Part shown: positions 11,545-37,730 of the stretch, piece after piece
Numbering within the stretch: position 1 is the stretch's first letter
How the letters are laid out: each line of letters begins with the position of its first letter
Notes under the pieces: model-generated
Databases searched by the model: none
Told to the model about the DNA's origin: nothing
What the model saw: the letters and a program-made list of their open reading frames with translations, nothing else
DNA from: Intestinimonas butyriciproducens
GTDB lineage: Bacteria > Bacillota > Clostridia > Oscillospirales > Butyricicoccaceae
Assembly: GCF_016901775.1 (NCBI RefSeq)
Contig: NZ_JACJKW010000004.1
Coordinates: 64,001 to 128,000 of the forward strand
Reading direction: 5' to 3'
Length of the DNA stretch: 64,000 bases
Program-made: the position numbers and the translations under genes

Positions 11545-14500
11545 ATGAAAAAACGGCTTTTATCTATCCTCTTAGTCATGATGATGGCCCTCTCAATCCT
11601 GCCGACCACATCTCTGGCCGCAAGTTCTGTGGAGGAGGCCCTCGGCGAGATCGACATCTACAACGGTGGGACAGAACTCTCCTACCTGATGATCAACGGC
11701 CGGGTGCGGACGCTGATCTACACCTATTATAATTATGTCAATGCCAAAGGGGAAACCCGGGAGATCCCAGCCTACTGCGTCAACCCCAATATTACCGGCG
11801 TGCCGCAGACGGTAGGCGTCGGCGAGAGTATTGAATATCTGGCGGAGGAAAAGACGTCAGATCCCAAGGTGCTGGGCATCGTCGCCAACGGCTACCCCAC
11901 CCGTTCCCTGGAGGAGCTGGGCCTGGAGAACAAGTACCAGGGCTACTATGCCACGAAGATGGCGCTCTGGTGTTACCTTCTGAGCAACTGGGACATCAAC
12001 AACCTCAAGGTCAACTCTTCCCTTACCGGGGTAGAACTGCAGCGCGCCCAGAAGATGCTCGCCGCCGCCAAGGACATCTATGCCCGCGGTACGGCCTGGA
12101 CAGAGGTGCTGGCCCCGGAAGTCACCTGCACCCCGGATCGGGACACGGCCTACCAGGTCACCATTGATGGAAAGCAGTATAAACAGCAGATTTTCACATT
12201 CTGGAGCAAAACCTGGGTATGTGACTATTCTGTGGAGGTGTTCTTTACAGATCCTGCTTCTGTTCCCGACGGCACCCGGATTGTGGACATGAACAACCGG
12301 GACATCACCACCATTACCACGGAGGGCACCGGCGACGGCTATGCCGGCCAGTTCAAGGTTTTGTACCCTCTGGAAAGCGTGGACGGCGAAACCGGCAGTG
12401 TCCAGCTCTCTTTCCGCACCGACGTCTATAAGTACGCCGTCTACTATGCGGTCTGTGCCGAGAAGGATCAGTACGGGAATATCCAGAATTATGTGGTGGA
12501 TACCGACCCCACCACGACCATGAGCCTTTCCGCCTACAGCAACTACGCGGACGGCCCCACCATTGAATATGAAACCGGGCTGCGAATCCTCAAATATGAG
12601 ACGGGGACGGAAATTCCCATCAGCGGGTGCCGTTTCGAGGTCATCGGCCCTGACGGCGACTCCGTTGGCGTCTTTGTGACGGATGGGGACGGCCGCATTG
12701 AGATCCCCCTCAGCAAAGTCGGCAATTATACCGTGATTGAACGGGATTCCGCGTCGCATTATGTCATCAGCGAGGAGCCTGCTCAGAACGTCACCGTGGT
12801 CTACGATGAAGTAGCCGAGGTGACGTTTTTTAATGATCCCTACGGTACGCTGAGAATTGAGAAGCGGTCCAACACCGGGCAGAAACTGCAGGGGGCCGTA
12901 ATCACCATTGAGCATATCGAAAGCGGCCAGACCTTCACCGCGGAGACGACCAGCGCGGGCGTCGCCATTTTTGACGAGATCCCCTTGGGGGCGTACCGCA
13001 TCCAGGAGAAGACTGCCCCGGTGGGCTGGAAACTGGATGATACCGTCTACACAGCAACGGTGGTGGCCGGCGAAACGACCACGATCCCCATTATCAATGA
13101 GGAGCTGCCGGGATTGCGGATCATCAAATATGATCGAAAAAATATGGTCGCGATGCCTGACGTCACCTTCGCTGTCTATCGGGACGGCGAATTTTTAGGC
13201 AATTTCAAGACGGACCAGTTCGGTGAGATCCTGCTCACCAATGTGGAGCCGGGCACTTACCGGGCCTTTGAGGTGGACACTGGCGACGAGGGCTACATCC
13301 TGGACACCACCCCCCAGGAGGTGGAGCTGCACACCGGGGACGGCATCAAAGAATTGATGTTCTTCAATGATATCAAGCCCGGTTTGCGGCTGGTGAAGGT
13401 GGATGCGGATGACCCCTCCAAGGTGATCCCCAACGCGGTCTTTGAGATTAAATCCGTGGAAGGCACCTACGGCCCCCAGGAGTTCCGGACTGACCAGAAC
13501 GGAGAAATCGACCTGTCCATGCTCCCGGCCGGGTCTTATGTAGTAACTGAAAAGTCCTGTGATGGCTACATCATCGACGAGGCCCAGCGCATTATTGAGC
13601 TGAAGCCCAATGAGGACGCCCAATTCGTTTTTACCAACCACATCAAGCCCTCCCTCCAACTCATCAAGCTGAGCAGTGACGGTTCCCGGCTGGCTGGGGT
13701 GACCTTCCGAATCGCGAAGATCGAGGACGGCTCTCACTACCTGGACCGTACCACCAGTTCCACGGGCGAGATCTTGATCTCCGATTTGGAACCTGGCGTC
13801 TATTCCGTGCGTGAATTGTCCTCGACGCCGGATCACATCCCGGATGATACGGAGCATCATGTGGAGTTGTTCCCAGGCCAGACCAGCACGATCACCCTGA
13901 CCAATGACAAGCGGCCCAATTTGTATATCCACAAAAATGACGCAGACACCGGCGCTCCGATCCCTCACACAGTCTACCTTGTGAAAGGGGCGGACGGCCA
14001 CTCCATCGCCGAGGTGGAGACGGACGAAAATGGCGTCGCAGTCGTTGAGAATTTGTTGCCCGGGGTGGTAGAAGTCATTGAAAAGTCGGTCCCGGAGCCT
14101 TACCTGCTGGCGGAGGAGTCCCAACTGGTGACGCTGTATCCCAACAGGGATCGGGACGTCTACTTTGAAAATTATAAGCGGCCTACCATCGAGATCATCA
14201 AGGAAAACGAAATCACCCATGATCCTCTCGAAAATGTTCCCGTACAGGTCTGGTACGCCTCCAACGACACCACCACGGGCGAATACAACGACCTGGGCGT
14301 GTTTTACACCGATGAGGAAGGCCGCATCGTCCTGAGCGATCCCGACCTATCCCTCCGGGACGGCTGGTTCCGTATCGAGGAGCTGGAGGTCCCGAAGGGG
14401 TTCTCCATGACGGAGTCCAGCAAACAGGAAGCCTTCATCGCCGCCGGCGAGGGCCATACCTTCCGCATTTTCAACCGGCCGTTGAGTGCTATTTGCGTAT

Positions 14501-16755
14501 GGAAATACGATTCGGAGACGGGGGCTGCCATCGAGGGGGCCGTGTTCCAGGTGCGCTACCTGAGCGGCAACACCTCTGGCACCGGCGGCACGGTGATTGG
14601 GACATACCGCACTTCGGTGAACGGGTCTTTCACGGTGACTGGCTGCGAGCCAGGCACCTATATCATCGAGGAACTCTCCTCGGACGGCTCCCACGTCATC
14701 GACACCCCGCCCCAGACGGTGTACCTCTCCGGCGAGGAGCAGGAGGTCGTACAGGTCTATTTTGGCAACAGCCCTATGGGATCTCTCCTTATCAAGAAGG
14801 TGTCCAGCGCCGATAATTCCCCGATTTCCGATGTTCAGTTCTTTGTGACGGAGAGCGACGGCAGCATAGTGGGTGACGGCAACGGCTACTATGTCACCGA
14901 TTCCGCAGGCACCATCCTGATTGAGGGCATCGAGCCCGGCACGACGCTGATTGTCAAGGAAACCAGGGCCAAAGAGGGATTCTTATTGGACGATACGCCC
15001 CAAACGGTCCAAATCAAGGCCGGGCAGACTACTACCATCGAATTTCGCAATCAACCCAAGGGCAATTTGATTATCCACAAACTGTCCAGTACTGACCGAA
15101 AAACGCCGCTGGAAGGGGTTCAGTTCAAAATCACCTATGCCGACGGCTCCTACCTGGCGGATGAAAACGGTCACTTGTCCTCTAACGGTTTGTACTGGAC
15201 CAATTCCGAGGGCCAGATCGTCCTCTCCAATGTAACCGGCACGCTGGTCGTGACTGAAGTGCAGAGCATCCCAGGCTATACCATTGACCCCAATACCCAG
15301 AGACAGACCGTGGTAGTCAATCCGGATGACACGCAGGAATTGTGGTTCTATAACGCCCCTGTGGGTGGTATCGAAATCATCAAGGTCAACGCCAGCAAGA
15401 CCTCTGAGCGCATCCCGGACACTACCTTTGAGATCCGCCGGATGGATGACGGGCTGGTAGATACCATCACGACGGACCGCAACGGCCGTGCCTTCCTTTC
15501 TTTGGAGGACGGCTCTTACTATGCCGTTGAAGTCGAGGCCAATCCAGACTTCATTTTGGATGATACCCCACACTATTTCGAGGTCAAGGATGGCGAGGTG
15601 ACCACCCTGCGCCTGACCAACGCGGCTAAGTCCGGCATCTTGATCCACAAGGTGGACACCAGCGGCGAGGGGATCTACGGCGTTAAGTTTCTGCTCTACG
15701 ATGAAAACCGCAACCCCATTGGGGAATTTACCTCGGATGACGATGGCTGGGTCTATATTACCGCTGACGATCTTCCGGACGGCGCCAACACCAGCGGCCG
15801 GTTCTACCTGCGTGAGCTGGAGGCCGCGGAAGGTTACATTTTAGACGAAGAGTACAAGACCGTCTATGTGCGGCCGGGCCATACGGCGGAGATCGAGTGG
15901 GTCAACGAGGCCATCACCGGCCAGATCCAGATTTACAAGTATGCCGCCGAATACAATGAGGTCACTGGCACGCCGGCCGGGACGCCGCTGCAAGGCGCTG
16001 TTTATGAGATTATCCACGCACGTAGCGGTAAAGTGGTGGACTACATCACCACGGACGCACGGGGCGTCGCGGCCAGCAAGCCCCTCCCTTTGACGCGCTA
16101 TAAGGTGGTTGAAGTCACAGCCCCGGCCTACTGGCAGGTAGATCCCACCGTCCATGACATCACGCTGGAATACGCCGGGCAGATCATCAAGGTCAGCGCC
16201 TACGATAAGCCCTCCAATCTGGGCGTGACCATCACCAAGCGGGGCAATGCCGAGGTGCTGGCCGGCCAGACCATGCGCTATGATTTGACGGTGGCAAACA
16301 CCTCCAACGTGCCCTTGGAGAATTTCTACTGGCACGATAAAATCCCTTATGATGTGGCTCGGGCCACCACCTTGACCACCGGCACCTACAGCGCCCGGCT
16401 CAACTACCGCATTCTCTACAAAACCAACTACCAGACCACATATCAGGTGCTGGCGTCCAATCTGCTGACCACCAACAACTACTCGTTTGCCTTGAACGCC
16501 ATTCCCATGCAGGCGGGAGAGGTTGTCACCGACATTTACTTTGATTTTGGGAAAGTTCCTGTCGGGTTTCAGTCCACAGCCGGTCCCACCCTGAGTGTCA
16601 TTGTCAACGGCAATACGGTCAATGGCTATCAGCTGGTCAACCGAGCTGATGCAGGCGGGCAGTACCAGGGCACCTGGCAGACCGCCCAAGCCAGCTGGGT
16701 CACCATTGTTCGCAAATACACCACCACACCGGATCTCCCCAAGACTGGGTACTAA
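11545..16755 (+). CDS. Giant Cna_B-repeat adhesin with thioester-like domain and terminal LPKTG
   Basis: A 1736-residue surface protein with a signal peptide (residues 1-25). Residues about 35-330 form a thioester-type adhesin domain with the family Cys at 78 (IPAYCVNP). The position where the family has Gln (ATQxAIW) is Lys138 (YATKMALW). Next come 13 Cna_B/SpaA-like repeats of about 90 residues (about 345-1550), most with the Lys, Glu and Asn of isopeptide-forming folds. A DUF11-like domain follows, ending in PDLPKTGY directly before the stop. There is no hydrophobic helix or basic tail. GGAGG precedes the ATG. It probably mediates cell-cell contact during mating and may be attached by the neighbouring sortase; the missing tail makes the anchoring mode uncertain. 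Confidence 0.88.
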   Translation: MKKRLLSILLVMMMALSILPTTSLAASSVEEALGEIDIYNGGTELSYLMINGRVRTLIYTYYNYVNAKGETREIPAYCVNPNITGVPQTVGVGESIEYLAEEKTSDPKVLGIVANGYPTRSLEELGLENKYQGYYATKMALWCYLLSNWDINNLKVNSSLTGVELQRAQKMLAAAKDIYARGTAWTEVLAPEVTCTPDRDTAYQVTIDGKQYKQQIFTFWSKTWVCDYSVEVFFTDPASVPDGTRIVDMNNRDITTITTEGTGDGYAGQFKVLYPLESVDGETGSVQLSFRTDVYKYAVYYAVCAEKDQYGNIQNYVVDTDPTTTMSLSAYSNYADGPTIEYETGLRILKYETGTEIPISGCRFEVIGPDGDSVGVFVTDGDGRIEIPLSKVGNYTVIERDSASHYVISEEPAQNVTVVYDEVAEVTFFNDPYGTLRIEKRSNTGQKLQGAVITIEHIESGQTFTAETTSAGVAIFDEIPLGAYRIQEKTAPVGWKLDDTVYTATVVAGETTTIPIINEELPGLRIIKYDRKNMVAMPDVTFAVYRDGEFLGNFKTDQFGEILLTNVEPGTYRAFEVDTGDEGYILDTTPQEVELHTGDGIKELMFFNDIKPGLRLVKVDADDPSKVIPNAVFEIKSVEGTYGPQEFRTDQNGEIDLSMLPAGSYVVTEKSCDGYIIDEAQRIIELKPNEDAQFVFTNHIKPSLQLIKLSSDGSRLAGVTFRIAKIEDGSHYLDRTTSSTGEILISDLEPGVYSVRELSSTPDHIPDDTEHHVELFPGQTSTITLTNDKRPNLYIHKNDADTGAPIPHTVYLVKGADGHSIAEVETDENGVAVVENLLPGVVEVIEKSVPEPYLLAEESQLVTLYPNRDRDVYFENYKRPTIEIIKENEITHDPLENVPVQVWYASNDTTTGEYNDLGVFYTDEEGRIVLSDPDLSLRDGWFRIEELEVPKGFSMTESSKQEAFIAAGEGHTFRIFNRPLSAICVWKYDSETGAAIEGAVFQVRYLSGNTSGTGGTVIGTYRTSVNGSFTVTGCEPGTYIIEELSSDGSHVIDTPPQTVYLSGEEQEVVQVYFGNSPMGSLLIKKVSSADNSPISDVQFFVTESDGSIVGDGNGYYVTDSAGTILIEGIEPGTTLIVKETRAKEGFLLDDTPQTVQIKAGQTTTIEFRNQPKGNLIIHKLSSTDRKTPLEGVQFKITYADGSYLADENGHLSSNGLYWTNSEGQIVLSNVTGTLVVTEVQSIPGYTIDPNTQRQTVVVNPDDTQELWFYNAPVGGIEIIKVNASKTSERIPDTTFEIRRMDDGLVDTITTDRNGRAFLSLEDGSYYAVEVEANPDFILDDTPHYFEVKDGEVTTLRLTNAAKSGILIHKVDTSGEGIYGVKFLLYDENRNPIGEFTSDDDGWVYITADDLPDGANTSGRFYLRELEAAEGYILDEEYKTVYVRPGHTAEIEWVNEAITGQIQIYKYAAEYNEVTGTPAGTPLQGAVYEIIHARSGKVVDYITTDARGVAASKPLPLTRYKVVEVTAPAYWQVDPTVHDITLEYAGQIIKVSAYDKPSNLGVTITKRGNAEVLAGQTMRYDLTVANTSNVPLENFYWHDKIPYDVARATTLTTGTYSARLNYRILYKTNYQTTYQVLASNLLTTNNYSFALNAIPMQAGEVVTDIYFDFGKVPVGFQSTAGPTLSVIVNGNTVNGYQLVNRADAGGQYQGTWQTAQASWVTIVRKYTTTPDLPKTGY

Positions 16756-20646: not shown

Positions 20647-20990
20647 GGCCCTGTTCAGATACACCTCCTGCAAAACAAGCAAAAAGATTTCCGTAGAAAA
20701 ATACGGAGTTATCTACCAGATGTCTTTGGTGCCCCATATTTTGATTGGAATATATAAAGCGGCTTTGCCACGCTGGCTGACCTCTGAGTAGGTCGTTCAC
20801 CAAGATTACTGAATTATTGTATCTTATTCCGCCCGATAATACAATGGGCACAAGGTAAAATGGTATGTATGAAGAATTATTTTGCGGTGTCTTGACCATC
20901 AGCAACTGTTCCGCCGAATGCCATAAAGCTGAAACCATATTTCCATTTCAATTTGAATCCGATAATAGCTGGAATTAAAATGCCATCCTT

Positions 20991-21019
20991 CAGCCCCCAT
21001 GTCTTGTGGGGGCTGATTT
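20991..21019 (+). terminator. Hairpin in the 20647-21093 gap
   Basis: CAGCCCCCA/TGGGGGCTG with a seven-base loop, followed by ATTTATTG, resembles a terminator reading right. The rest of the gap (20647-20990) is AT-rich, holds the AlbA_2 gene's ribosome-binding site and a small CCGTA/TACGG hairpin near 20695, and shows no supportable gene. Confidence 0.55.
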
Positions 21020-21093
21020 ATTGTTTACAAAAAGTTCATTCTTTTTCGGGCCCAAACCCGCGTTTTGCGGTGCGTATTGAAGGAGAAGAGTAT

Positions 21094-21420
21094 ATGAAGG
21101 AAATCACTTCTGCATCTGCCCGGAGGCTGTACCGTTTTCTATCTGCCTGCGGCGGGAACTGGCGCAATACCATCCATATTGTCGCCCAAGGCGGCCATAC
21201 CGGCTGGCTCATGGCCGCGGATCAGTACGGGAAACCAGTTGTGATGGTCGTAGATGCTTTTCAAAAGTTGACACAGGAACAGATCGAACCTGCGGAATGC
21301 CGGGGATACCTGACAGAATCCGCCTTTGGGGATATTTTCGCCAGGTATCTCCTCTGGCAGATCCCGGATGCCGGCGTCCCTCCTGCAGACGCGCTGAACC
21401 TGCTGTCATCATCACTTTAA
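21094..21420 (+). CDS. Small hypothetical protein
   Basis: A 108-residue protein beginning MKEITSASARRLYRF. The ATG at 21094 has AAGGAGA eight bases upstream; longer in-frame extensions cross the upstream hairpin and are rejected. It is soluble and alpha/beta, with no known motif. It is the first gene of the run leading to the zinc-finger protein and sigma factor, so probably an accessory gene of element maintenance. Confidence 0.65.
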   Translation: MKEITSASARRLYRFLSACGGNWRNTIHIVAQGGHTGWLMAADQYGKPVVMVVDAFQKLTQEQIEPAECRGYLTESAFGDIFARYLLWQIPDAGVPPADALNLLSSSL

Positions 21421-21441
21421 GAACATAGGAGGGATCTATCC

Positions 21442-21843
21442 ATGAAACGAGTCAACATCAAATGCCCTTACTGCGGCGCCCGGGCTTTCCTGCGGCCGGC
21501 CTCCGTGGTATATGGGGAGCGGGCCGCCCCGGGGAGCAAGCTCTATGTGTGCGGCAACTATCCCGCCTGCGATTCCTATGTGGCCGCCCACCGCACCAGC
21601 CAGTTGCCGATGGGGACGCTGGCCGATAAGCAGCTGCGGCGGGAGCGGCAGGCCGCTCATGCCGTATTCAATCAGCTATGGAAAAGCGGCCTGATGTCCA
21701 AGCGGCAGGCCTATCTCTGGCTCCAGGCGAAACTGGATCTTCCGGAATGCGAGGCCCATATTGCCAAGTTTTCCGAGGGCCGCTGTCAACTGGTCATTGA
21801 CCTGTGTGAAAAGTTCCTCGGCGCCCAGCGCCGGGCTGCTTAG
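21442..21843 (+). CDS. DUF3268-like zinc-finger protein
   Basis: A 133-residue protein with an N-terminal zinc ribbon. The Cys pairs are CPYCG near residues 8-12 and CGNYPAC near 37-43, the latter typical of DUF3268 family proteins (topoisomerase-like zinc finger). The C-terminal half is helical and basic. GGAGGG precedes the ATG. It lies directly upstream of a sigma factor. It probably binds nucleic acid; the precise role is unknown. Confidence 0.78.
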   Translation: MKRVNIKCPYCGARAFLRPASVVYGERAAPGSKLYVCGNYPACDSYVAAHRTSQLPMGTLADKQLRRERQAAHAVFNQLWKSGLMSKRQAYLWLQAKLDLPECEAHIAKFSEGRCQLVIDLCEKFLGAQRRAA

Positions 21844-21856
21844 GGAGGTGTGTCCA

Positions 21857-22468
21857 GTGAAATTCGATCACCCCCTCACCAGGGAACAGCAGCATCTGGT
21901 AGAGCAGAATATTTCACTGATCCATTGGACGATTTGGAAGTACATCGATGTCAAAGAGGAGATCTGCGGTTTAGCCTATGACGATCTGCACCAGGAGGGG
22001 GCCTTGGCCCTATGTTATGCCGCCGCCACTTACCGTCCCGGCGGCGCGCAGTTCAAAACCTATGCCATCACGGTCATCCGCAATCACCTACTGGACCATT
22101 GCCGCCGCATTGCGGCGCAGCTGAAAAATGTGCCGACCTGCTCTTTGGATACGCCGCCCTGTGAAGACCGGCCGCCTCCCGTCAGAGAGGCAGAGGTCGC
22201 GCAGGACGATTCAGAACAGTGGGTTTCAGCCATCTATGTCGCGCAACTGCTGGAACATGGGAAGCGACACTACAGCGGGGTCGCCAAATTGGGCGTTGAG
22301 GCGCTGGAGCTGAAGATCAAAGGCTACAGCGGCGCCGATATTGCCCGGCTGTACCATACGAAGCCGAATCATGTGGGCGCGTGGATCGCTCGTGCGGCGG
22401 AAAAGTTCCGGCAGGATGCGATCTCCGCAGATCTGCTCTCCCAAATGGGATTTGAAAAAGGGGCTTGA
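21857..22468 (+). CDS. Sigma-70 family factor (first of four sigma-like proteins)
   Basis: A 203-residue protein starting at GTG, with GGGAGGTG upstream. Region 2 is visible in the N-terminal half (YDDLHQEGALALCYAAATYR, FKTYAITVIRNHLLDHCRR). The C-terminal part, from about 150, is a region-4-like HTH (IKGYSGADIARLYHTKPNHV). It probably transcribes element genes or regulates excision and transfer. It sits 13 bases after the DUF3268-like gene and is probably co-expressed. Confidence 0.85.
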   Translation: MKFDHPLTREQQHLVEQNISLIHWTIWKYIDVKEEICGLAYDDLHQEGALALCYAAATYRPGGAQFKTYAITVIRNHLLDHCRRIAAQLKNVPTCSLDTPPCEDRPPPVREAEVAQDDSEQWVSAIYVAQLLEHGKRHYSGVAKLGVEALELKIKGYSGADIARLYHTKPNHVGAWIARAAEKFRQDAISADLLSQMGFEKGA

Positions 22469-22508
22469 GATTCGTAGAAAATAGTAACCAGGAAAGGAGA
22501 ACCTTATT

Positions 22509-23204
22509 ATGGACAAACGGACATATTACACGGCGGTTGGCCGGTTCACCAAGCGGCATGATGCGGATGGGAATACATATCCCGTGGTCTATGTCAATCA
22601 GCAGGAATATCTTCTGGACCTCCAGGAAATGGCCGTGTGGACGGCGCTGACTTGGCGCCTGTCCGATTTCCGCCAGCTGGAGCGAAAGTATGATTTGCTG
22701 GCAAGGGAACTGCATCTGCTGGAGCCGCGCACCCTGGAAAACTGTCTGCGCCATCTGGAGGTGCGTGGGCTGGTGGCCTCCGGTAGCGGTGAGGATGACC
22801 TGGAGGCCCTGTATGATTTGCTCGGCGGATTGTATGTGGTGCCGATTTCAGAGAGCCTGCTTCTTCGCGTCGCCACCTTCGCAAAACTGACATTTCTGGG
22901 CGGCGTACCGTTCTCCACCACAAAGAACCTGTTTCAGCGGCGGAAGATGGATGAATGCGAGAATCGGATTTTGGCGCTGTCCAGACAGGCGCTACTATCC
23001 ACTGCGGAGTTGGTCAAATGCGTAGAACTGGGGATCTTTGACCTCTCCTCCGGCGAGCGGGTCATAGACGCTCTGTACGATGACGTCGATACGACCAGCG
23101 ATAATATCCGCTATCTGATGCTCAGCGCGGACAGCCGCACATCTGTCACCCTGGCGGTAGCGAACCTGTGTCTGGGCAAACAGATCATTTTTGAGAGGGT
23201 ATAG
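22509..23204 (+). CDS. Hypothetical helical protein, winged-helix-like
   Basis: A 231-residue protein with AAAGGAGAA before the ATG. Residues about 40-90 (MAVWTALTWRLSD, LENCLRHLEVRGLVAS) look like a winged helix; a second helical repeat follows. No catalytic residues stand out. It overlaps nothing and is followed after three bases by a membrane protein gene. Function not recognised. Confidence 0.65.
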   Translation: MDKRTYYTAVGRFTKRHDADGNTYPVVYVNQQEYLLDLQEMAVWTALTWRLSDFRQLERKYDLLARELHLLEPRTLENCLRHLEVRGLVASGSGEDDLEALYDLLGGLYVVPISESLLLRVATFAKLTFLGGVPFSTTKNLFQRRKMDECENRILALSRQALLSTAELVKCVELGIFDLSSGERVIDALYDDVDTTSDNIRYLMLSADSRTSVTLAVANLCLGKQIIFERV

Positions 23205-23207
23205 GCG

Positions 23208-23708
23208 ATGCGGCAGTTCAGAGACTGGCCCGCCGCCCTTCAGCGCAAATGGCTCTTGTCCTGGGCGGCGGGCGCGGCCTTCCTTACCGTAGGAATCACG
23301 GTCTTTCTCGCGCTGGAGGACCGGCCCCTGTTGATCATCAGCACCCTGCTGGCGGCTTGTGTCGCCCTGCGCTGCATGGCCTTTTACCGGACAGCGGCAG
23401 GCGGAAACTATGAAGTCATCACAGGCATCTGCGTCGGCCTGGGACACGCCGGCCTGAGACGGAGCCGGACGGTTCGGATGCTCTTGACCGACGGAACGGA
23501 ATATGAGGTGGCGTTGGATAAGCGCATCGCTCTTCGGATCGGGAACCGCTACCAGCTTTACTTCCGCCTGGTCCCCGGCTTGTCCGGCGGCCAGGCGTTC
23601 CCCAGGCAGGCGCTTATGGACAGCCAGTTTTTAGCCCTTGAGGATCTGGGTGAGTACCACATAGACAAAGATGCTGAGGATGCCGTGCAGAAATCTGAAC
23701 CGCACTGA
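23208..23708 (+). CDS. Small membrane protein
   Basis: A 166-residue protein with two N-terminal transmembrane helices (WLLSWAAGAAFLTVGITVFL and LLIISTLLAACVALRCMAFY) and a cytoplasmic beta-rich domain of about 90 residues. It follows the previous gene by three bases, so is translated as part of the same operon. A family name cannot be given. Confidence 0.65.
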   Translation: MRQFRDWPAALQRKWLLSWAAGAAFLTVGITVFLALEDRPLLIISTLLAACVALRCMAFYRTAAGGNYEVITGICVGLGHAGLRRSRTVRMLLTDGTEYEVALDKRIALRIGNRYQLYFRLVPGLSGGQAFPRQALMDSQFLALEDLGEYHIDKDAEDAVQKSEPH

Positions 23709-23774
23709 TGTGTTTTCCATACAGAAAGGCATTGAGGCGGAATTACGGCATACCGGCGGGAAAGGAGTATCCTT

Positions 23775-24029
23775 ATGGACAAACCTCGGGCATATGAAAA
23801 AGTCAGCCAAATCACGCTTCCTGACCCCAGTGACCAGGACCCACACCCTCGGCTCCGGGTAAATGGACGCGGCATCCATGCCGGGGAGAGTTTTACAGCC
23901 CTCTTCCCAGACGGGTGGCACGACGTCACCCTGGAAGTATGCTGGGATGTCGCGGGCCCGGCCTGCTGGTATATCTCCAATGCCGGATTCTCCGGCATCT
24001 GCCCGGTCGGTCTTTTTGTTCGCCGGTAA
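23775..24029 (+). CDS. Small DUF5348-like protein
   Basis: An 84-residue soluble protein. GGAAAGGAG precedes the ATG. The C-terminus CWYISNAGFSGICPVGLFVR resembles DUF5348 proteins of Firmicutes mobile elements (from memory). No membrane segment. It is the last gene before the regulated promoter and structured RNA at 24.08-24.30 kb. Confidence 0.65.
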   Translation: MDKPRAYEKVSQITLPDPSDQDPHPRLRVNGRGIHAGESFTALFPDGWHDVTLEVCWDVAGPACWYISNAGFSGICPVGLFVRR

Positions 24030-24083
24030 TTTCCTGCACCCATATCAGAGACACAAATTCTTGTAGAAAATTCAGCCGCGGCA

Positions 24084-24135
24084 TACTATATATAGTATAA
24101 TAACGCTTGACAAAATCAATATATAGTGGTACACT
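24084..24135 (+). promoter_or_regulatory. Sigma-A promoter with AT-rich palindromic operator
   Basis: TTGACA at 24107-24112 and TACACT at 24130-24135 are separated by exactly 17 bases. A perfect 14-base palindrome, TACTATATATAGTA, lies at 24084-24097, and a partial copy, ATATATAGT, sits within the spacer. The layout suggests a repressor- or activator-controlled promoter, with transcription starting near 24142. Confidence 0.75.
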
Positions 24136-24141
24136 ACCATT

Positions 24142-24298
24142 GTAATTGATTCTTTGTGCGCTCCTCATTTTGAGGGTAGGCTATGAAACAGCCTATGAGC
24201 GAGAGGTCTCGCATTGCACACGTTGTCAGGTTTGTACGTGAGTGCCAGCGGAACGACTGCGCCCTTTTGAGGGGTGTGTCTGCTCCCTGGTGCTTTTT
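24142..24298 (+). ncRNA. Structured RNA/leader ending in a terminator, upstream of ssb
   Basis: About 155 bases between promoter and terminator fold into several stems. An outer CGCTC/GAGCG (24159-24163 with 24197-24201) encloses CTC/GAG and TAGGCT/AGCCTA (24177-24195). An overlapping alternative, GCGAGA/TCTCGC, lies at 24199-24212. CACGT/ACGTG (24219-24240) follows. The terminal hairpin pairs GTGCCAG with CTGGTGC around GCGCCC/GGGTGT, followed by TTTTT at 24294-24298. It could be a stand-alone ncRNA or an attenuator controlling ssb. Alternative pairing between two stems suggests switching; no protein in this stretch is credible. Confidence 0.65.
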
Positions 24299-24337
24299 AT
24301 ATATATTTAGTAAAGCCGTCAGGCGGAAAGGAGTGTT

Positions 24338-24760
24338 ATGGCCCAAGCGATTGTTTTTGGCCGGGTCACCACTGGTCTTGAACTGAAAACCAGCTTGAAG
24401 AACAACCCCTATGTGATGTTTTCCCTGGCCGAACACTTTGGATTCGGGGAGGCCGCACGCACCCAATTCATTCAGGTGTGGGCGTGGGGGCATCTGGCAC
24501 ATCAACTGGTAAAATGCAGTGTGGCAAAGGGAAGCACGATTTGGGTATCCGGTTTTCTGGAGTTATCCGATTACACCAGAAAAGACGGCGTCACCAAGGA
24601 CAAGCGCCTGAAGCTCACACTGAAAGACTGGGGGTTTCTTCCCGGCACAGGACGATCCAGGCAAGAACCTGCATCTCAAACCGGCGCAATGGAGGCGCCC
24701 GCAGCAGAACCGCCCACTGCCGACATCATCGACGGTGAGCGGGAGGAACTTCCGGAGTGA
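24338..24760 (+). CDS. ssb: Single-stranded DNA-binding protein
   Basis: A 140-residue OB-fold protein: strands at residues 1-15 and 40-105 (KGSTIWVSGFLELSDYTRKD, KLTLKDWGF) match the SSB/PriB-like fold. The last 35 residues are low-complexity and acidic (EREELPE), like SSB tails, although the usual DDxPF tip is absent. GGAAAGGAG precedes the ATG. The role is probably to coat transferred single-stranded DNA. Its promoter region contains the structured RNA described above. Confidence 0.82.
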   Translation: MAQAIVFGRVTTGLELKTSLKNNPYVMFSLAEHFGFGEAARTQFIQVWAWGHLAHQLVKCSVAKGSTIWVSGFLELSDYTRKDGVTKDKRLKLTLKDWGFLPGTGRSRQEPASQTGAMEAPAAEPPTADIIDGEREELPE

Positions 24761-24774
24761 AGCTCCGGGTACGC

Positions 24775-24838
24775 AAGAGGCACGATACTTAAATGATTCA
24801 GAGACATTCTGAACATTGGGTATCGTGCCTCTTTTTTT
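24775..24838 (+). terminator. Long terminator after ssb
   Basis: A 14-base outer stem, AAGAGGCACGATAC/GTATCGTGCCTCTT, encloses an inner AATG-TTCAGA/TCTGAA-CATT hairpin and is followed by TTTTTTT. Confidence 0.9.
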
Positions 24839-24871: not shown

Positions 24872-25654
24872 GTGAAACGACAGACTTCCCTCTGGGGGAG
24901 CATTTCCGTCCTGATCGGTGTGATCGTCGGCATCGTGGCCCTTGTCCGCGGGCCGGCTTTCTATCCGATGATCCTGCTGGCCTTTGCCGTGTGGGGCGTT
25001 TGGGCCGTTCTGACACTTGGCCTGCCCCGGTGGCGCACTGGCTATGTCCGGCGCCAGATGGCAAATGAAACGCAGAGTGTCCGGTCAGAACTGGATGCCG
25101 CAAATGTCCCTGTCGATGTGGCCCAAACCCTGCTGCGCCATGTCAATTACCGAATCTCCGCATATCTGAAATCCTCCCATCCGAATGCCCGCTGGGAATG
25201 GGTTACCCGAAATCCCGCACTCCTGGCGGTCCAGGGTGGGATCGGGCGCATCCGGCTCTATGGCGTGGATGATTACGACTATGCGGATGTAGAACTGGAT
25301 CAGCAGGGTAGCCTCTCCTGTTCCCTGGTTCGCCTCATGGCGGAACAGATGCCTGACGGAGAACCGCCGGCTTCCCCCGGAATGCCGTTGGACCCCCGGA
25401 TCTGGTACGACCAGCAGGGCCGCGAAACCCTGGAGATGCTGATCGCCGACCTGAACTCCAGAGGCTATAAGCATCTCGCGCTCAAAGAGGACGGGAGCAT
25501 CTGCACTTCTCTCGACGGGGCAAATGAGGAAACGATCCAGAGCACCTTCAGCAACTTCCCGGCCAAGGTCTACTGGCCGCAGCTGGCGAAGGTTCTGGAG
25601 CAGGAAGGCCTGGCTGCGACCGTAGAGGCCAACTGCGTTTCCGTGGCCTGGTGA
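24872..25654 (+). CDS. Membrane protein with cytoplasmic domain
   Basis: A 260-residue protein starting at GTG (AAAGGTGG upstream), with two transmembrane helices in the first 55 residues (LWGSISVLIGVIVGIVALV, FYPMILLAFAVWGVWAVLTL) and a soluble alpha/beta remainder. It follows the ssb terminator, so needs its own promoter or read-through. Unrecognised. Confidence 0.65.
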   Translation: MKRQTSLWGSISVLIGVIVGIVALVRGPAFYPMILLAFAVWGVWAVLTLGLPRWRTGYVRRQMANETQSVRSELDAANVPVDVAQTLLRHVNYRISAYLKSSHPNARWEWVTRNPALLAVQGGIGRIRLYGVDDYDYADVELDQQGSLSCSLVRLMAEQMPDGEPPASPGMPLDPRIWYDQQGRETLEMLIADLNSRGYKHLALKEDGSICTSLDGANEETIQSTFSNFPAKVYWPQLAKVLEQEGLAATVEANCVSVAW

Positions 25655-25679: not shown

Positions 25680-26768
25680 ATGAAAACCGGACGGACAATT
25701 CAAGAGATGGCCGTCGAGATCATGCGCCAGAGCAAGGCCAAAGAGGACTACCTGGTGAACACCGGGAGCCTTGTCATGGAGGTGTGGGACGGTCAGCCCA
25801 TGCTCCACCTGCGGGATGCGGACGGCAGTGAGCTGGTCGATCCCTTGGACATCCAGAGTACAGCCCATCAGCAGATTGGCGATTATCTGGAGATCCCCAG
25901 GAAGTACTACCGGCGGATGCTCGGAGAGGATGCGGAACTGCTGGCCTATAATGTCAACCGCTGGTTCCAGCAAAAACCGGAGCAGCGCATGATCCGTACA
26001 ATGGATGGCCGTGCCCGCGCCTTTTTGAGCAACCGCTACCGGCGCATCGACAACCTGGACATCGCCACCATCACCCTTCCCATCATCGGGGAAATGAAGG
26101 ATGTCATCTATGCGTCCTGTGAATTGACCGAAGACTATATGTATATCAAGGCCGTCAATCCCCGCCTTACTGCAGAGGTCGTGCCTGGGGATGTTGTCCA
26201 GGGCGGCGTCATCATCACCAACAGCGAGACGGGACACGGCTCCGTGTGCGTGCAGCCATTGATCTACCGTCTGGTATGTTCCAACGGCATGGTGGTCAAT
26301 GATGCCAAGGCCCGCCGTTACCATGTGGGACGGATCGCCAGCACCGATGATGATTTTCAGATCTACTCCCAGGAAACGCTGGACGCTGACGATCAGGCTT
26401 TTGTTCTCAAACTGCAGGACACGGTTCGGGCGGCGGTGGATGAAGCCAAGTTCGCCGCAGTCCTGGACAAGATGCGGGAGAGCAAGGACGCCAAGCTGAA
26501 CACCGCAGACATCCCCAATGTGGTCAAGCTGGCCAGTTCCAATTTTAAGATCACCGAGGCGGAAAGCGCCGGCGTCCTTCAGCACCTGATCGAGGGCGGC
26601 GACCTGACCCTCTACGGCCTGGCCAACGCCGTGACCCGGTACAGCCAGGATGTGGAGAACTATGACCGGGCCAGCAAGCTGGAGGAGATCGGCTATCAGG
26701 TGATGACCATGTCCCCCAAGTTGTTCCAGGCGATCAATCAGATGCAGCCGGTCACACTGGCTGCGTAA
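25680..26768 (+). CDS. DUF932-like protein
   Basis: A 362-residue soluble protein resembling DUF932 phage/plasmid proteins. The pattern RAFLSNRYRRIDN, VYIKAVNP-like strands, and the segment LVCSNGMVVNDAKARRYHVG match the conserved core of that family. DUF932 proteins accompany conjugative plasmid and phage replication genes; biochemical function is not established. AAAGGAG precedes the ATG. The gene sits among maintenance genes between SSB and a Cys-motif protein. Confidence 0.8.
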   Translation: MKTGRTIQEMAVEIMRQSKAKEDYLVNTGSLVMEVWDGQPMLHLRDADGSELVDPLDIQSTAHQQIGDYLEIPRKYYRRMLGEDAELLAYNVNRWFQQKPEQRMIRTMDGRARAFLSNRYRRIDNLDIATITLPIIGEMKDVIYASCELTEDYMYIKAVNPRLTAEVVPGDVVQGGVIITNSETGHGSVCVQPLIYRLVCSNGMVVNDAKARRYHVGRIASTDDDFQIYSQETLDADDQAFVLKLQDTVRAAVDEAKFAAVLDKMRESKDAKLNTADIPNVVKLASSNFKITEAESAGVLQHLIEGGDLTLYGLANAVTRYSQDVENYDRASKLEEIGYQVMTMSPKLFQAINQMQPVTLAA

Positions 26769-27645: not shown

Positions 27646-28212
27646 TTGCCCCGAATCGCACGGAATACCGGGCGGAAAGTTTCCCTGCCGGAGCAGCAGG
27701 CCCCCGCTCTCACTTCAGAGGTTTTGTCATCGGAAGAGCGCCGCTTTGCCGCGGAACAGCACAATCTGATTTATACATACCTCAGTGAAAAGGGGCTGTA
27801 CCACGGAGACTATTACGACATAGCGGCTTTTGGCTACCTCCGGGCAGTCAAGCGGTACCTCACGGAACCGCATCTGCGAAAATACGCGTTCTCCACGATT
27901 GCCTGGCGTGCGATGCGCCAGAGCATCGCGGCCTTCCACCGCTCAGAGGAGCGGCGGAAGGCTACGGAACGCGCCTATGCCGAGAACTACCCCGTGGCCG
28001 CAGATGCCTGGGATGACCTGGAGGGCGACCTCATACTGCATGACTTGGCCGCCGTTTCCAGCCAAGAGCAGTATACTGTCGCCCGGCTCCGACTGCAGGG
28101 CTATTCCATCGCGGAGGCCGCTCTTGCACAGGGAGTCAGCCCCAAGCGCGTCCGAAAACTGCTCAAGGAACTTTACCGGGTCTATTTGGCTCTTACAACC
28201 AACGACACATGA
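27646..28212 (+). CDS. Sigma-like regulator (second of four)
   Basis: A 188-residue protein. The TTG at 27646 lies one base past the upstream stop, so translation is probably coupled; the true start is uncertain because no good ribosome-binding site is visible. Region 2-like sequence (YDIAAFGYLRAVKRYLTEP, FSTIAWRAMRQSI) and a region-4-like HTH (LQGYSIAEAALAQGVSPKRV) are visible. It probably acts as an accessory sigma factor or sigma-derived activator. Confidence 0.78.
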   Translation: MPRIARNTGRKVSLPEQQAPALTSEVLSSEERRFAAEQHNLIYTYLSEKGLYHGDYYDIAAFGYLRAVKRYLTEPHLRKYAFSTIAWRAMRQSIAAFHRSEERRKATERAYAENYPVAADAWDDLEGDLILHDLAAVSSQEQYTVARLRLQGYSIAEAALAQGVSPKRVRKLLKELYRVYLALTTNDT

Positions 28213-28518: not shown

Positions 28519-28569
28519 AGGGGCGCATTGCAGAACACCATGTTTCTACAATGCGCCCCTTTTTCTTTT
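28519..28569 (+). terminator. Terminator at 28.5 kb
   Basis: A perfect 12-base stem, AGGGGCGCATTG/CAATGCGCCCCT, with an 18-base loop, followed by TTTTTCTTTTTG. Confidence 0.9.
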
Positions 28570-28585: not shown

Positions 28586-29254
28586 ATGGGAACATTGACA
28601 AAACCGCTTTCCCTTAAAGACCAGGTTTCCTTCCAATGCCGGCTCTGCGGCGACTGCTGCCGGGGCCTTGAGGGTCAGTTGATGCTGGAGCCGCCGGATG
28701 CCTACCGTCTGGGACGGCACCTACGGGCATCCGGGGCAGTAGCCGAAATCGAGGATGTCTACGCCAAGTACGCCCATGTCTCCATGCTGGCGGAGGGAAT
28801 CCCCATTTTTCTGATGAACACGGTGGGGGCGGATCATGCCTGCGTGTTCCTGAAGGAGCGCCGCTGCACAATATATCGCGCCCGCCCCCGTGTATGCAGG
28901 CTCTACCCGTTTTCGGCATTCCCGGGTGGATCGGGAGAAAAGTTCCGGTATGCTCAGTGTGTAGATAGCAATGCCGCGCACTTCTCCGCCGGAACCGTCT
29001 GCGTCCAGGATTGGATGTGGCGGAATTTCTCCAACGAGGACCGGGCCTTTCTTGAAAAAGAAGCCGGTTACACCGCTGAGCTGGGCCGGCTCCTGCGCGG
29101 TGCCAGCTCGGAAAAGCGGCGGGAATGGCTGTTCCCGCTCCTGTTCTACCGCTACTACAACTACGACCTGGAGCGGCCCTTCCCGGAGCAGTATGAGCGA
29201 AACCACCGGGAACTGCTGGACCACCTCCGCCAAAACGGACGGAAGGAGCGGTGA
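28586..29254 (+). CDS. YkgJ-family cysteine cluster protein
   Basis: A 222-residue protein with the YkgJ signature (FeS- or zinc-binding Cys cluster): CRLCGDCC near residues 18-25, CVFLKERRCTIYRARPRVCR near 88-107, and a later Cys. ATG 28586 follows GTGGAGG. The metal and reaction are not known for this family. It overlaps the next gene by four bases (GTGA). Confidence 0.82.
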   Translation: MGTLTKPLSLKDQVSFQCRLCGDCCRGLEGQLMLEPPDAYRLGRHLRASGAVAEIEDVYAKYAHVSMLAEGIPIFLMNTVGADHACVFLKERRCTIYRARPRVCRLYPFSAFPGGSGEKFRYAQCVDSNAAHFSAGTVCVQDWMWRNFSNEDRAFLEKEAGYTAELGRLLRGASSEKRREWLFPLLFYRYYNYDLERPFPEQYERNHRELLDHLRQNGRKER

Positions 29255-33850: not shown

Positions 33851-33883
33851 CAGGTCGTGCGAAAAAAAGAGGTGAGACATCGA

Positions 33884-36800
33884 ATGAAATATGCACAGCA
33901 AGAGATGAACTTGACCCGTGAACAGCGCAAGACCCTCAACGAGAAAGTCCTCTATCTCATTGACAGCAACAGCGTGGAACAGGCCGGCATCACCAGCGAG
34001 GACATTTACAACGCATACACCGGAGAGGGCGGCCTGCACGGTCTGGAGCGGGCCGACTTCGACAGCTATTACGCCTACAGTGAGAAGAAAAAAGAGATCG
34101 AGAACGGGCAATTCTTCACGCCCCCGGCCATTTGCCAACTGGTGGCGGAGAGCCTGCGTCCTTCCATCAGCGATGTGGTGGCCGACCTCACCTGCGGGAA
34201 GGGCAGTTTCTTCAATTTCATGCCTGTGGAGACCAACTGCTATGGCTGTGAGTTGGACGCCAGGGCCTATAAGGTGGCCCACTACCTCTATCCCGGCGCA
34301 CGTCTGGAACTGACCGACATCCGCGCCTATAGGCCGGACCTTCGCTTTGACTATGTGGTCGGCAACCCGCCCTTCAACCTCAAATGGTATGCGGAGGACG
34401 GGGAATGCCTCTCCCAGCTCTATTACTGTATCAAAGCCGCCCAGGTACTCAAGCCCCTGGGCATCCTGGCCCTGGTCACGCCCTGCTCCTTCCTGGCGGA
34501 CGATTTTACGGACAAGGCCATGATTCGTGAGATGGAGGCGCGGTTCAGTTTCCTCGGCCAGATCGCCCTGCCGGAGGACGCCTTCTCGGCCTTGGGAGTC
34601 GCAAGTTTCCCCACAAAACTGCAGTTCTGGCAGAAGAGAAGCGACCTGAAGGACTGGACGGCCCGCCGCTACACCACCAGCACCCTATATGCTCTTGCCG
34701 ACGGTTTCGACCCGGAATCTGAAGCGAAACGGTTGTATGAGCGGGTGCTGATGCTTCCAAAATCGGAGCTGGAGAAAAACCGTTCCCATGTGCTGCTGGA
34801 GCTTGCCCGGATGAAACAGACCTCCGTGGGGTTCACCTATGAGACACAGAAACTGCTCTATCAGATCAAGGCGCACCCGGCGGTGCGGGACCGATACACG
34901 AAATGCTGTGAATACCTGCACCGTTTCTACACTGAGCAAAAGCCGGACAACATGGATTATAAGGAGTGGGAACGCACGCGGCTGACCGAGGCAAAGGTGC
35001 TGGCCTATCTGCGTGGCGCCCTGACCCGGCAGAACAAAAGGCCGACGCGGGACGTCATCGCTCTGGTCAAACAGAACGACCAGTTCCAGTACAAGGCATA
35101 CAGCCCGAAAGCGAGCCGGCAGATACGGCCGGAGCAGAAGGAGCCTGTCCCCATCTATCAGGCCGTGCTGGACAACGAGCCGGGACGTTTTCCCGGCTAT
35201 GAGCGTTTCCTCCGACGCCGGCGGCGGGAGTATGACCGTCAGAGCCAGTCCTTCCGTGAGATGCCGGAAGATCCGAACATCGCCACATGGCTGCAGGAAT
35301 TTACCCTCTGGGACATGGAGAATGAAGAGGTAATCCAGCTCAACGACCTCCAGCGGCAGGACATCAACCGTATTCTGCAGAAGCGATATGGCCTTCTCCA
35401 ATGGGAGCAGGGCAGCGGGAAAACGCTGGCGGCCATCGCCACAGGGATGTACCGCATGGAACAGCAGGGGCTTCACAGCACCTGGGTCATTTCCTCAGCC
35501 ATTTCCATCCGCAACAACTGGGATGTGGTGCTGAAAAACTACAGCCTGTCCTATGTGTTCGTGGAGCGGCTGAAGGATCTGGAGCGCATCCGTCCAGGGG
35601 ATTTTGTCCTGATGACCCTCAATCAGATGTCCAAGTACCGCAGGCAGATCAAAAAATGGGTGAAGCTCCACGGCAATAAGATCCAGCTGGTGCTGGACGA
35701 GAGCGACGAGATCTCCAATCCCTACGCGGTGCGGACAAAGGCCGCCCTGGACTGCTTCCGGCGCTGCCGCGCCAAGTTGCTGACCACCGGCACCAGTACC
35801 CGGAACAACATCGTGGAGTTCGCACCCCAGCAGGAACTGCTCTACAACAACTCCATCAACATGATCTGCTGGTGCAAAAGGGTCTATCACTACGACAGCG
35901 AGGCCGGCCGGGTCTATGAGAAGGGGGACAACGCCTACTATGGAAAGCCGATCCCTGCCTATAAGAAAGGGTATGCGCTGTTCTCCTCCTGCCATCTGCC
36001 AGACAAGCCCACTGTGTTTGGGGTGAGCGAGCGGACGCAGGACATCTACAATGCGGCGGAGCTGGACGCGATCCTCGCCAAGACCGTGATCACGCGAACC
36101 TTCGAGGAGGTGACCGGCAAAGACATCCGGCGCATCCATCAGGTGCCGGTGAAGTTTTCCCTGGAGGAACGCGCCGTATATGAACAAGTCATCAAAGAAT
36201 TCGACAGGCTGTGGCGCAATTACTTCGCGTCCACCGGCAACCACAGGAAGGACGCCATGCTCAAACTGATGCAGCAGATCACCCTGTTGCTCCGGGTGAG
36301 CGCCGCCCCCAACACCCTGGCGGAGTACCAGGGCGGCACGCCAGTGAAGATCCGCAAAGCCGTAGAAATGGCCCAGCGGTGGGAGAACGAGATCGTGGCA
36401 ATCGGCGTTCGCCACAAAGTTGTGCTGGACGCCTACGCTGAGGCCATCCAGGAGGCCATGCCGGACCGGCCGCTGTTCCTGGTGACCGGCTCGACCACCT
36501 CCTTTGCCAAGCGGCGGGCGCTCCGCAAGACCCTGCGGGAGAGTGGGAACGGCATCCTGCTCTGCACCCAGCAGAGCCTGCCCTCCAGCGTCAATTTCGA
36601 TTTCGTGAACAAAATCATCATCCCGGAGCTTCACTACAACAACTCCGGCATGAGCCAGTTCTATATGCGCTTTATCCGCTATACATCCACGGAGTATAAG
36701 GACATTTACTTCCTCACCTACGCGGGGAGCCTGGAGTCCAACCTCATGCAGATGGTGGTGGCAAAGGAGAAGATCAATCTGTTCATGCGCGGCCAGGACA

Positions 36801-36925
36801 CCAACCTGGACGAGATCTATGAGCGGTTTGGGATTGACTACAACCTGCTGTCCCTGCTCATGCGCCGGGAGGTGGACGAAAAGGGCCATCTAAATATCCG
36901 CTGGGGCGAGCAGATGATCGCATGA
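33884..36925 (+). CDS. N6-adenine methyltransferase-SF2 helicase fusion
   Basis: A 1013-residue protein. The N-terminal methyltransferase domain has motif I DLTCGKGSF (101-109) and catalytic NPPF (161-164). From about 480 there is a superfamily-2 helicase-like ATPase with P-loop EQGSGKT (508-514), motif II DESD (605-608) and a motif III-like TTGTST. A motif VI-like SQFYMRFIRY lies near nt 36652-36680, lacking the usual GxxR. No nuclease domain is evident, so it is not a complete type ISP enzyme. P1 DarB-like antirestriction proteins pair the same two activities, so protection of incoming DNA is a reasonable inference. ATG 33884 is chosen because AGAGGTGA is upstream. Confidence 0.85.
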   Translation: MKYAQQEMNLTREQRKTLNEKVLYLIDSNSVEQAGITSEDIYNAYTGEGGLHGLERADFDSYYAYSEKKKEIENGQFFTPPAICQLVAESLRPSISDVVADLTCGKGSFFNFMPVETNCYGCELDARAYKVAHYLYPGARLELTDIRAYRPDLRFDYVVGNPPFNLKWYAEDGECLSQLYYCIKAAQVLKPLGILALVTPCSFLADDFTDKAMIREMEARFSFLGQIALPEDAFSALGVASFPTKLQFWQKRSDLKDWTARRYTTSTLYALADGFDPESEAKRLYERVLMLPKSELEKNRSHVLLELARMKQTSVGFTYETQKLLYQIKAHPAVRDRYTKCCEYLHRFYTEQKPDNMDYKEWERTRLTEAKVLAYLRGALTRQNKRPTRDVIALVKQNDQFQYKAYSPKASRQIRPEQKEPVPIYQAVLDNEPGRFPGYERFLRRRRREYDRQSQSFREMPEDPNIATWLQEFTLWDMENEEVIQLNDLQRQDINRILQKRYGLLQWEQGSGKTLAAIATGMYRMEQQGLHSTWVISSAISIRNNWDVVLKNYSLSYVFVERLKDLERIRPGDFVLMTLNQMSKYRRQIKKWVKLHGNKIQLVLDESDEISNPYAVRTKAALDCFRRCRAKLLTTGTSTRNNIVEFAPQQELLYNNSINMICWCKRVYHYDSEAGRVYEKGDNAYYGKPIPAYKKGYALFSSCHLPDKPTVFGVSERTQDIYNAAELDAILAKTVITRTFEEVTGKDIRRIHQVPVKFSLEERAVYEQVIKEFDRLWRNYFASTGNHRKDAMLKLMQQITLLLRVSAAPNTLAEYQGGTPVKIRKAVEMAQRWENEIVAIGVRHKVVLDAYAEAIQEAMPDRPLFLVTGSTTSFAKRRALRKTLRESGNGILLCTQQSLPSSVNFDFVNKIIIPELHYNNSGMSQFYMRFIRYTSTEYKDIYFLTYAGSLESNLMQMVVAKEKINLFMRGQDTNLDEIYERFGIDYNLLSLLMRREVDEKGHLNIRWGEQMIA

Positions 36926-37692: not shown

Positions 37693-37730
37693 AGCCGGGC
37701 CAAGGGGAAATCCCCTTGGCCCGGCTTTTT
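37693..37730 (+). terminator. Strong terminator at the end of the plus-strand gene block
   Basis: A perfect 15-base stem, AGCCGGGCCAAGGGG/CCCCTTGGCCCGGCT, with loop AAAT, followed by TTTT. A second, weaker hairpin for the convergent minus-strand genes lies at 37755-37785 (GGGCCG/CGGCCC). Confidence 0.92.

Follow-up and report, generated by a model that had tools for sequence, protein, structure and literature searches.

A conserved structured RNA at the heads of two operons of a conjugative element in Oscillospirales, a candidate for processive antitermination

Directly upstream of the ssb gene, the window (by which we mean the whole stretch of 64,000 nucleotides of Intestinimonas butyriciproducens DNA that was analysed) encodes a short folded RNA that is not specific for ssb: its relatives head two operons of one conjugative element in gut bacteria. 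The most likely interpretation, which we favour by a modest degree of confidence, is that it works in cis in processive antitermination, as part of the leader of an operon that is under operator control and belongs to an integrative and conjugative element. The context at the level of the element, that is, the two operons, the loss of ssb from some copies and the presence of several terminators, is visible only through other genomes. The window encodes a VirB4-like ATPase and a T4SS coupling protein and therefore holds a conjugative element; a large SpaH/EbpB-like pilin-type protein, scoring below the family cut-off, is found among its transfer genes (11545–16755).

The RNA is preceded on the forward strand by a sigma-70-type promoter at 24107–24135, with the -35 box TTGACA at 24107, a spacer of 17 bp and the -10 box TACACT at 24130–24135. 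Two operator-like boxes, CTATATATAG upstream of the promoter (24086–24095) and CAATATATAG within its spacer (24117–24126), are 31 bp apart in the window. The preliminary description, which was made from this sequence alone, had proposed a well-spaced promoter with a palindrome, and both the consensus promoter and the operator-like boxes were confirmed. In almost all members of the family the promoter has the same place relative to the RNA and, because the motif begins 6 nt past the -10 box in almost every member, it is predicted to form the 5' end of the transcript.

The core domain of the RNA (24142–24240, forward strand) is defined by its fold, by a covariance model match (E 1.1e-18) and by covariation. 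It is a single closed multibranch domain, built from helices P0 (24146–24150 paired with 24225–24229) and P1 (24155–24160 with 24215–24220) and the three hairpins H1 (24163–24175), H2 (24176–24196) and H3 (24199–24212). It is followed on the same strand by T1, a separate terminator hairpin with a U tract (24240–24298; hairpin 24240–24295, TTTTT 24294–24298) that is supported by the fold, the terminator scan and covariation of its outer stem, and then by a ribosome-binding site and the ssb start at 24338. The terminator hairpin with TTTTT that had been placed ahead of ssb is thus real, as is the gene itself (24338–24760, forward strand; PF00436, E 4.5e-13). The 'nested stems' reported earlier hold good as a folded RNA, but their arrangement is that of one multibranch domain plus a terminator hairpin. 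From 24142 onwards, 157 nt have a folding energy of -60.8 kcal/mol against a shuffle mean of -47.8 (z = -3.5), and none of 200 shuffles came as low. Promoter, operator-like boxes and folded RNA form a single unit of about 210 bp, with a core of about 95 nt.

We collected 58 members of this RNA family, nearly all of them in one bacterial order, Oscillospirales. They include a second copy in the window's own genome, found by DNA search at 84% identity on another contig (C13), and further copies that precede ssb in Vescimonas pMM35_02 and MT836821, found by searching plasmid and phage records. A first covariance model matched 18 of 394 genomes of the order, including one match (L013 in genome G044) with a weak score and no fitting promoter, which was excluded from the family as a false positive. 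The second model matched 25 of 300 genomes of one family; among the matching genomes listed for the class none came from another order, and elsewhere in the phylum there was one matching genome, from a different class. There were no matches to the second model in 220 kb of control DNA, nor to an exact 20-nt pattern in viral contigs.

Covariation among homologues had been named beforehand as the test of a structured RNA. In the alignment of the 58 members (A3), 93.1% of the cells are paired and there are 90 double changes, compared with 27.7 after shuffling and no more than 19 once the pairing partners are slid. In P1, for example, UGUGC/GCACA is replaced by UGCGC/GCGCA in several lineages. Given 58 homologues with covariation, a chance origin of the fold is excluded. 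The core also has conserved unpaired sequence. The Rfam search proposed in the preliminary description returned no family: Rfam 15 had no match to the window RNA, either at the gathering score or at E values up to 10, nor to the homologues scanned, and the weak hits in the region were mostly to eukaryotic microRNAs, with other chance matches. Because of this lack of matches in the window and in the scanned homologues we call the family new, its presumed job being of a known kind.

The members fall mainly before two sets of genes. Type A, the ssb operon, comprises 24 copies, of which 20 stand before ssb, three lack ssb and one is a deletion remnant; in the three without ssb (L080, L081 and L092) the RNA and terminator still head the rest of the operon. 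The 20 copies of type B precede a gene for a YqaJ-type exonuclease, followed by one for a RecD2-like helicase, beside a tyrosine integrase. When two copies lie on one contig they are convergent in 10 of 11 cases (G216, G203, G266, G182, G395, G355, G1219, G1427, G1443 and the Subdoligranulum variabile record OY725878), the sole non-convergent pair being that of G1423. Among 11 non-redundant same-genome pairs, the likeness of the hairpin regions of the A and B copies is 0.76 within elements versus 0.56 between them (permutation p 5e-5). Since this likeness is greater inside an element than across elements, the two probably do the same job; gene conversion, common descent and a shared element-specific partner could each account for it. 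A further group, type C (L020, L024, L093, L078, L084, L096 and L085), is found at a distance of several hundred bases upstream of genes for tyrosine or serine recombinases.

The paired boxes, of the form CWATATATWG, are both present at 51 of the 58 family promoters and are spaced by 30–31 bp, about three helical turns, at 44 of the 58. Three type C copies (L084, L096 and L085) do not have them. Across whole elements, such pairs are almost confined to the two RNA promoters, against a chance expectation of 0.0 per element, and the two operons therefore look like one regulon. A third operator-like pair was seen away from the RNA promoters, beside an integrase gene (G203:C1 at about 46063, G266:C1 at about 58542). 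Two sigma-factor-like genes (sigma-70 region 2; ECF-like, weak) were also noted, one upstream of the operon (21857–22468) and the other inside it (27646–28212).

Both modules are present in Flavonifractor sp. An82 (L003) with 98.4–98.5% DNA identity to the window genome (window 20923–24787, L007), and G216, which has the same arrangement as An82, is placed in a family other than that of the window. The identity and this placement indicate recent transfer. A deletion in An82 has joined the recD end of the second operon to the DNA that follows ssb, leaving the RNA copies 2.2 kb apart.

The genes behind the RNA are interrupted by terminators at conserved positions; these were called with strict scans, as a looser scan yielded mostly noise. 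T1 is found in 23 of 24 type A leaders, and covariation of its outer stem is seen across 19 type A copies (14 double-change cells versus 5.1). Type B leaders carry a further hairpin, T2, which likewise has a U tract; the scan found it in 19 of 20, and in the remaining one, L094, it was seen by eye. Most type B leaders also have T1. The gap of about 40 nt between T1 and ssb is too short to hold a promoter. Behind ssb, automatic scanning shows a strong terminator at 17 of 20 loci, and G182 and G395 also have one; it stands 30–44 nt ahead of the next gene, again with no space for a promoter. In the window the post-ssb terminator (24775–24833, forward strand; TTTTTGTTT, -34.4 kcal/mol) lies about 38 nt before a gene with no Pfam family (24872–25654), which is the first gene in elements without ssb. 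Downstream on the same strand are a DUF932 gene (25680–26768, assigned by Pfam), an internal terminator detected by the scan (28519–28560) 26 nt before a gene for a CxxCxxCC protein (28586–29254; PF03692), and a strong operon-end terminator (37693–37726). Also encoded in the operon is a large protein (33857–36925) that carries both N6-methylase and SNF2-type helicase domains and may have an anti-restriction or establishment function. The head promoter is the sole match of at least 10/12 in the 13.6 kb of the window operon. As there is no promoter room behind the terminators, the genes there should hardly be expressed unless polymerase passes.

We favour an antitermination RNA because of its position at the 5' end, its presence at both operon heads, its retention in operons without ssb and the terminators that lie behind it. 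The 5'-terminal RNA would act in cis on the polymerase that has just made it, carrying it past T1 and then past later terminators, after ssb and further down, and would do likewise at the second operon, with the YqaJ exonuclease and RecD2 helicase genes. We infer that, while the element is integrated, one putative repressor bound at the paired CWATATATWG boxes keeps the two operons silent. Once the element is induced or arrives in a new cell, each operon would be transcribed in full from its single promoter, and stray transcription would halt at the terminators. A search of the elements for a protein partner, for which NusG was looked for, found none: each genome has one NusG gene, on other contigs or far away, and no paralogue is encoded by the elements. 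Antitermination of the LoaP/NusG type was rejected, the only NusG gene being outside the elements. Speaking against antitermination by the RNA are the missing partner, a density of tight terminators not significantly above that of control DNA, the possibility that weak terminators simply leak, and the type C copies, some of which have no clear operon behind them.

The main rival of processive antitermination is an attenuator acting at a single terminator, in which the core would sense a signal (a ligand, a protein or other) and decide only at T1 (or T2). We regard it as unlikely, although T1 directly follows the core in type A, both are conserved and, in several members including that of the window, the 5' arm of T1 can pair with the core before its 3' arm is made. 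The partner region of this arm changes between members and is absent in many, so that no conserved antiterminator pairing was found. The preliminary description had pointed to overlapping stems that allow alternative folds; a switch based on them was rejected for the same lack of a conserved pairing, and the GCUC/GAGC stem near 24197–24201 is peculiar to the window copy and its closest relatives and is not kept in most homologues. An attenuator would also leave the conserved post-ssb terminators and the tandem T1 and T2 unexplained.

If the transcript ending at T1 were instead released as an RNA of about 155 nt and acted in trans on other transcripts, ssb would be reached by leakage. The compact shape of the unit, with its own promoter and terminator, and the location of some copies (L012, type C) apart from any operon would suit such a small RNA; its fixed place at both operon heads, the lack of promoter space between T1 and ssb, and the tandem terminators before the YqaJ gene with no other strong promoter would not, and we consider this reading improbable.

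Less probable still is an insulator, whose hairpins would only halt stray transcription and protect the 5' end of the mRNA, read-through of leaky terminators being passive. Terminators near the end of an element can insulate, as in Tn916 (PMC11658703). Internal terminators are also not significantly denser than in control DNA (tight terminators, all co-directional gene pairs: 18 of 125 in the operons versus 10 of 110, p = 0.23), and the terminator argument made above rests on conserved position and not on density. However, a covarying core with conserved unpaired sequence, at two sites and alike within elements, demands a specific function. F-type leading regions have a Frpo-like single-stranded DNA promoter upstream of ssb, and the foldable sequence upstream of ssb could recall such a promoter or a leading-region replication start, its fold mattering as single-stranded DNA in transfer; this is very improbable. 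A consensus promoter of the ordinary double-stranded kind has been conserved outside the fold, and the two copies are convergent on opposite strands, so that one transferred strand could serve at most one of them; a DNA-only reading was rejected for both copies on the latter ground.

Several known RNAs were compared with the window RNA. As to the earlier suggestion of a link to the DUF3268 RNA motif, a true DUF3268 gene (PF11672, E 8.6e-42) does lie about 2.7 kb upstream. That motif, which we take to be contained in Rfam 15, gave no match in the window at the gathering score or at E values up to 10, nor in the homologues, and the identity was rejected. The motif has been described as a k-junction (PMC10573300), and the window RNA starts 2.3 kb past the end of the DUF3268 gene and reads into ssb instead. 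STAXI (RF01728) consists of tandem pseudoknots in Enterobacteriales and, like the window RNA, is a structured RNA near ssb, as well as near other DNA-processing genes (PMC2864571); its model matched neither the window nor the homologues, and this identity was likewise rejected.

The put RNA is present at two early operons of one phage, and EAR is presumably held in Rfam 15 as epsC. Both HK022 put and B. subtilis EAR are RNAs of processive antitermination that work without a dedicated protein (PMC8955417, PMC11658703), the kind proposed here; no relation in sequence to either was found, Rfam 15 giving no match, and put was compared by description only. As in put, EAR, canT and conAn2, the window RNA lies at the start of an operon with terminators that lack promoter room. 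The canT RNA of Tn916, a Gram-positive integrative conjugative element, acts in cis so that polymerase passes the terminators of the element (PMC11658703), as is proposed for the window RNA. It was studied as a 452-bp fragment (PMC11658703), whereas here a core of about 95 nt lies at the transcript start in two copies per element, and the second model had no significant match in a truncated Tn916-like plasmid or the Tn1549 record. Like the window RNA, the conAn system of pLS20 heads a large operon interrupted by terminators, there one for conjugation, and it includes an RNA part (PMC8955417). It is bipartite, with the protein ConAn1 (PMC8955417), whereas no protein partner was found here, and model R2 did not match pLS20 positions 1–50000 at E values up to 10. 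In plasmids of the pLS20 family, establishment operons are likewise preceded by regulatory regions that occur repeatedly; of these, EGeRS2 provides promoter and operators, and EGeRS1, which is folded, blocks read-through (PMC8708921). EGeRS1 is about 400–750 bp long with no promoter detected, whereas here a unit of about 210 bp combines promoter, operator-like boxes and folded RNA.

Very few cases of RNA-based processive antitermination are known; for conjugative elements such RNAs have been described as canT (PMC11658703) and conAn2 (PMC8955417), the only two that we found in the literature on these elements. More tentatively, the RNA might represent a new class of RNA-only processive antiterminator, a matched pair of which, at both operon heads and evolving in concert in each element, would convert a pair of repressed promoters into an all-or-nothing switch governing some 20–40 kb of terminator-bearing DNA. 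With at least 58 members, clear covariation, paired positions and defined terminators, the mechanism is open to a direct reporter test. If it holds, it would also show how elements that pass from one family of Oscillospirales to another (two families share DNA of 98.4% identity) may keep their genes for DNA processing quiet but in readiness.
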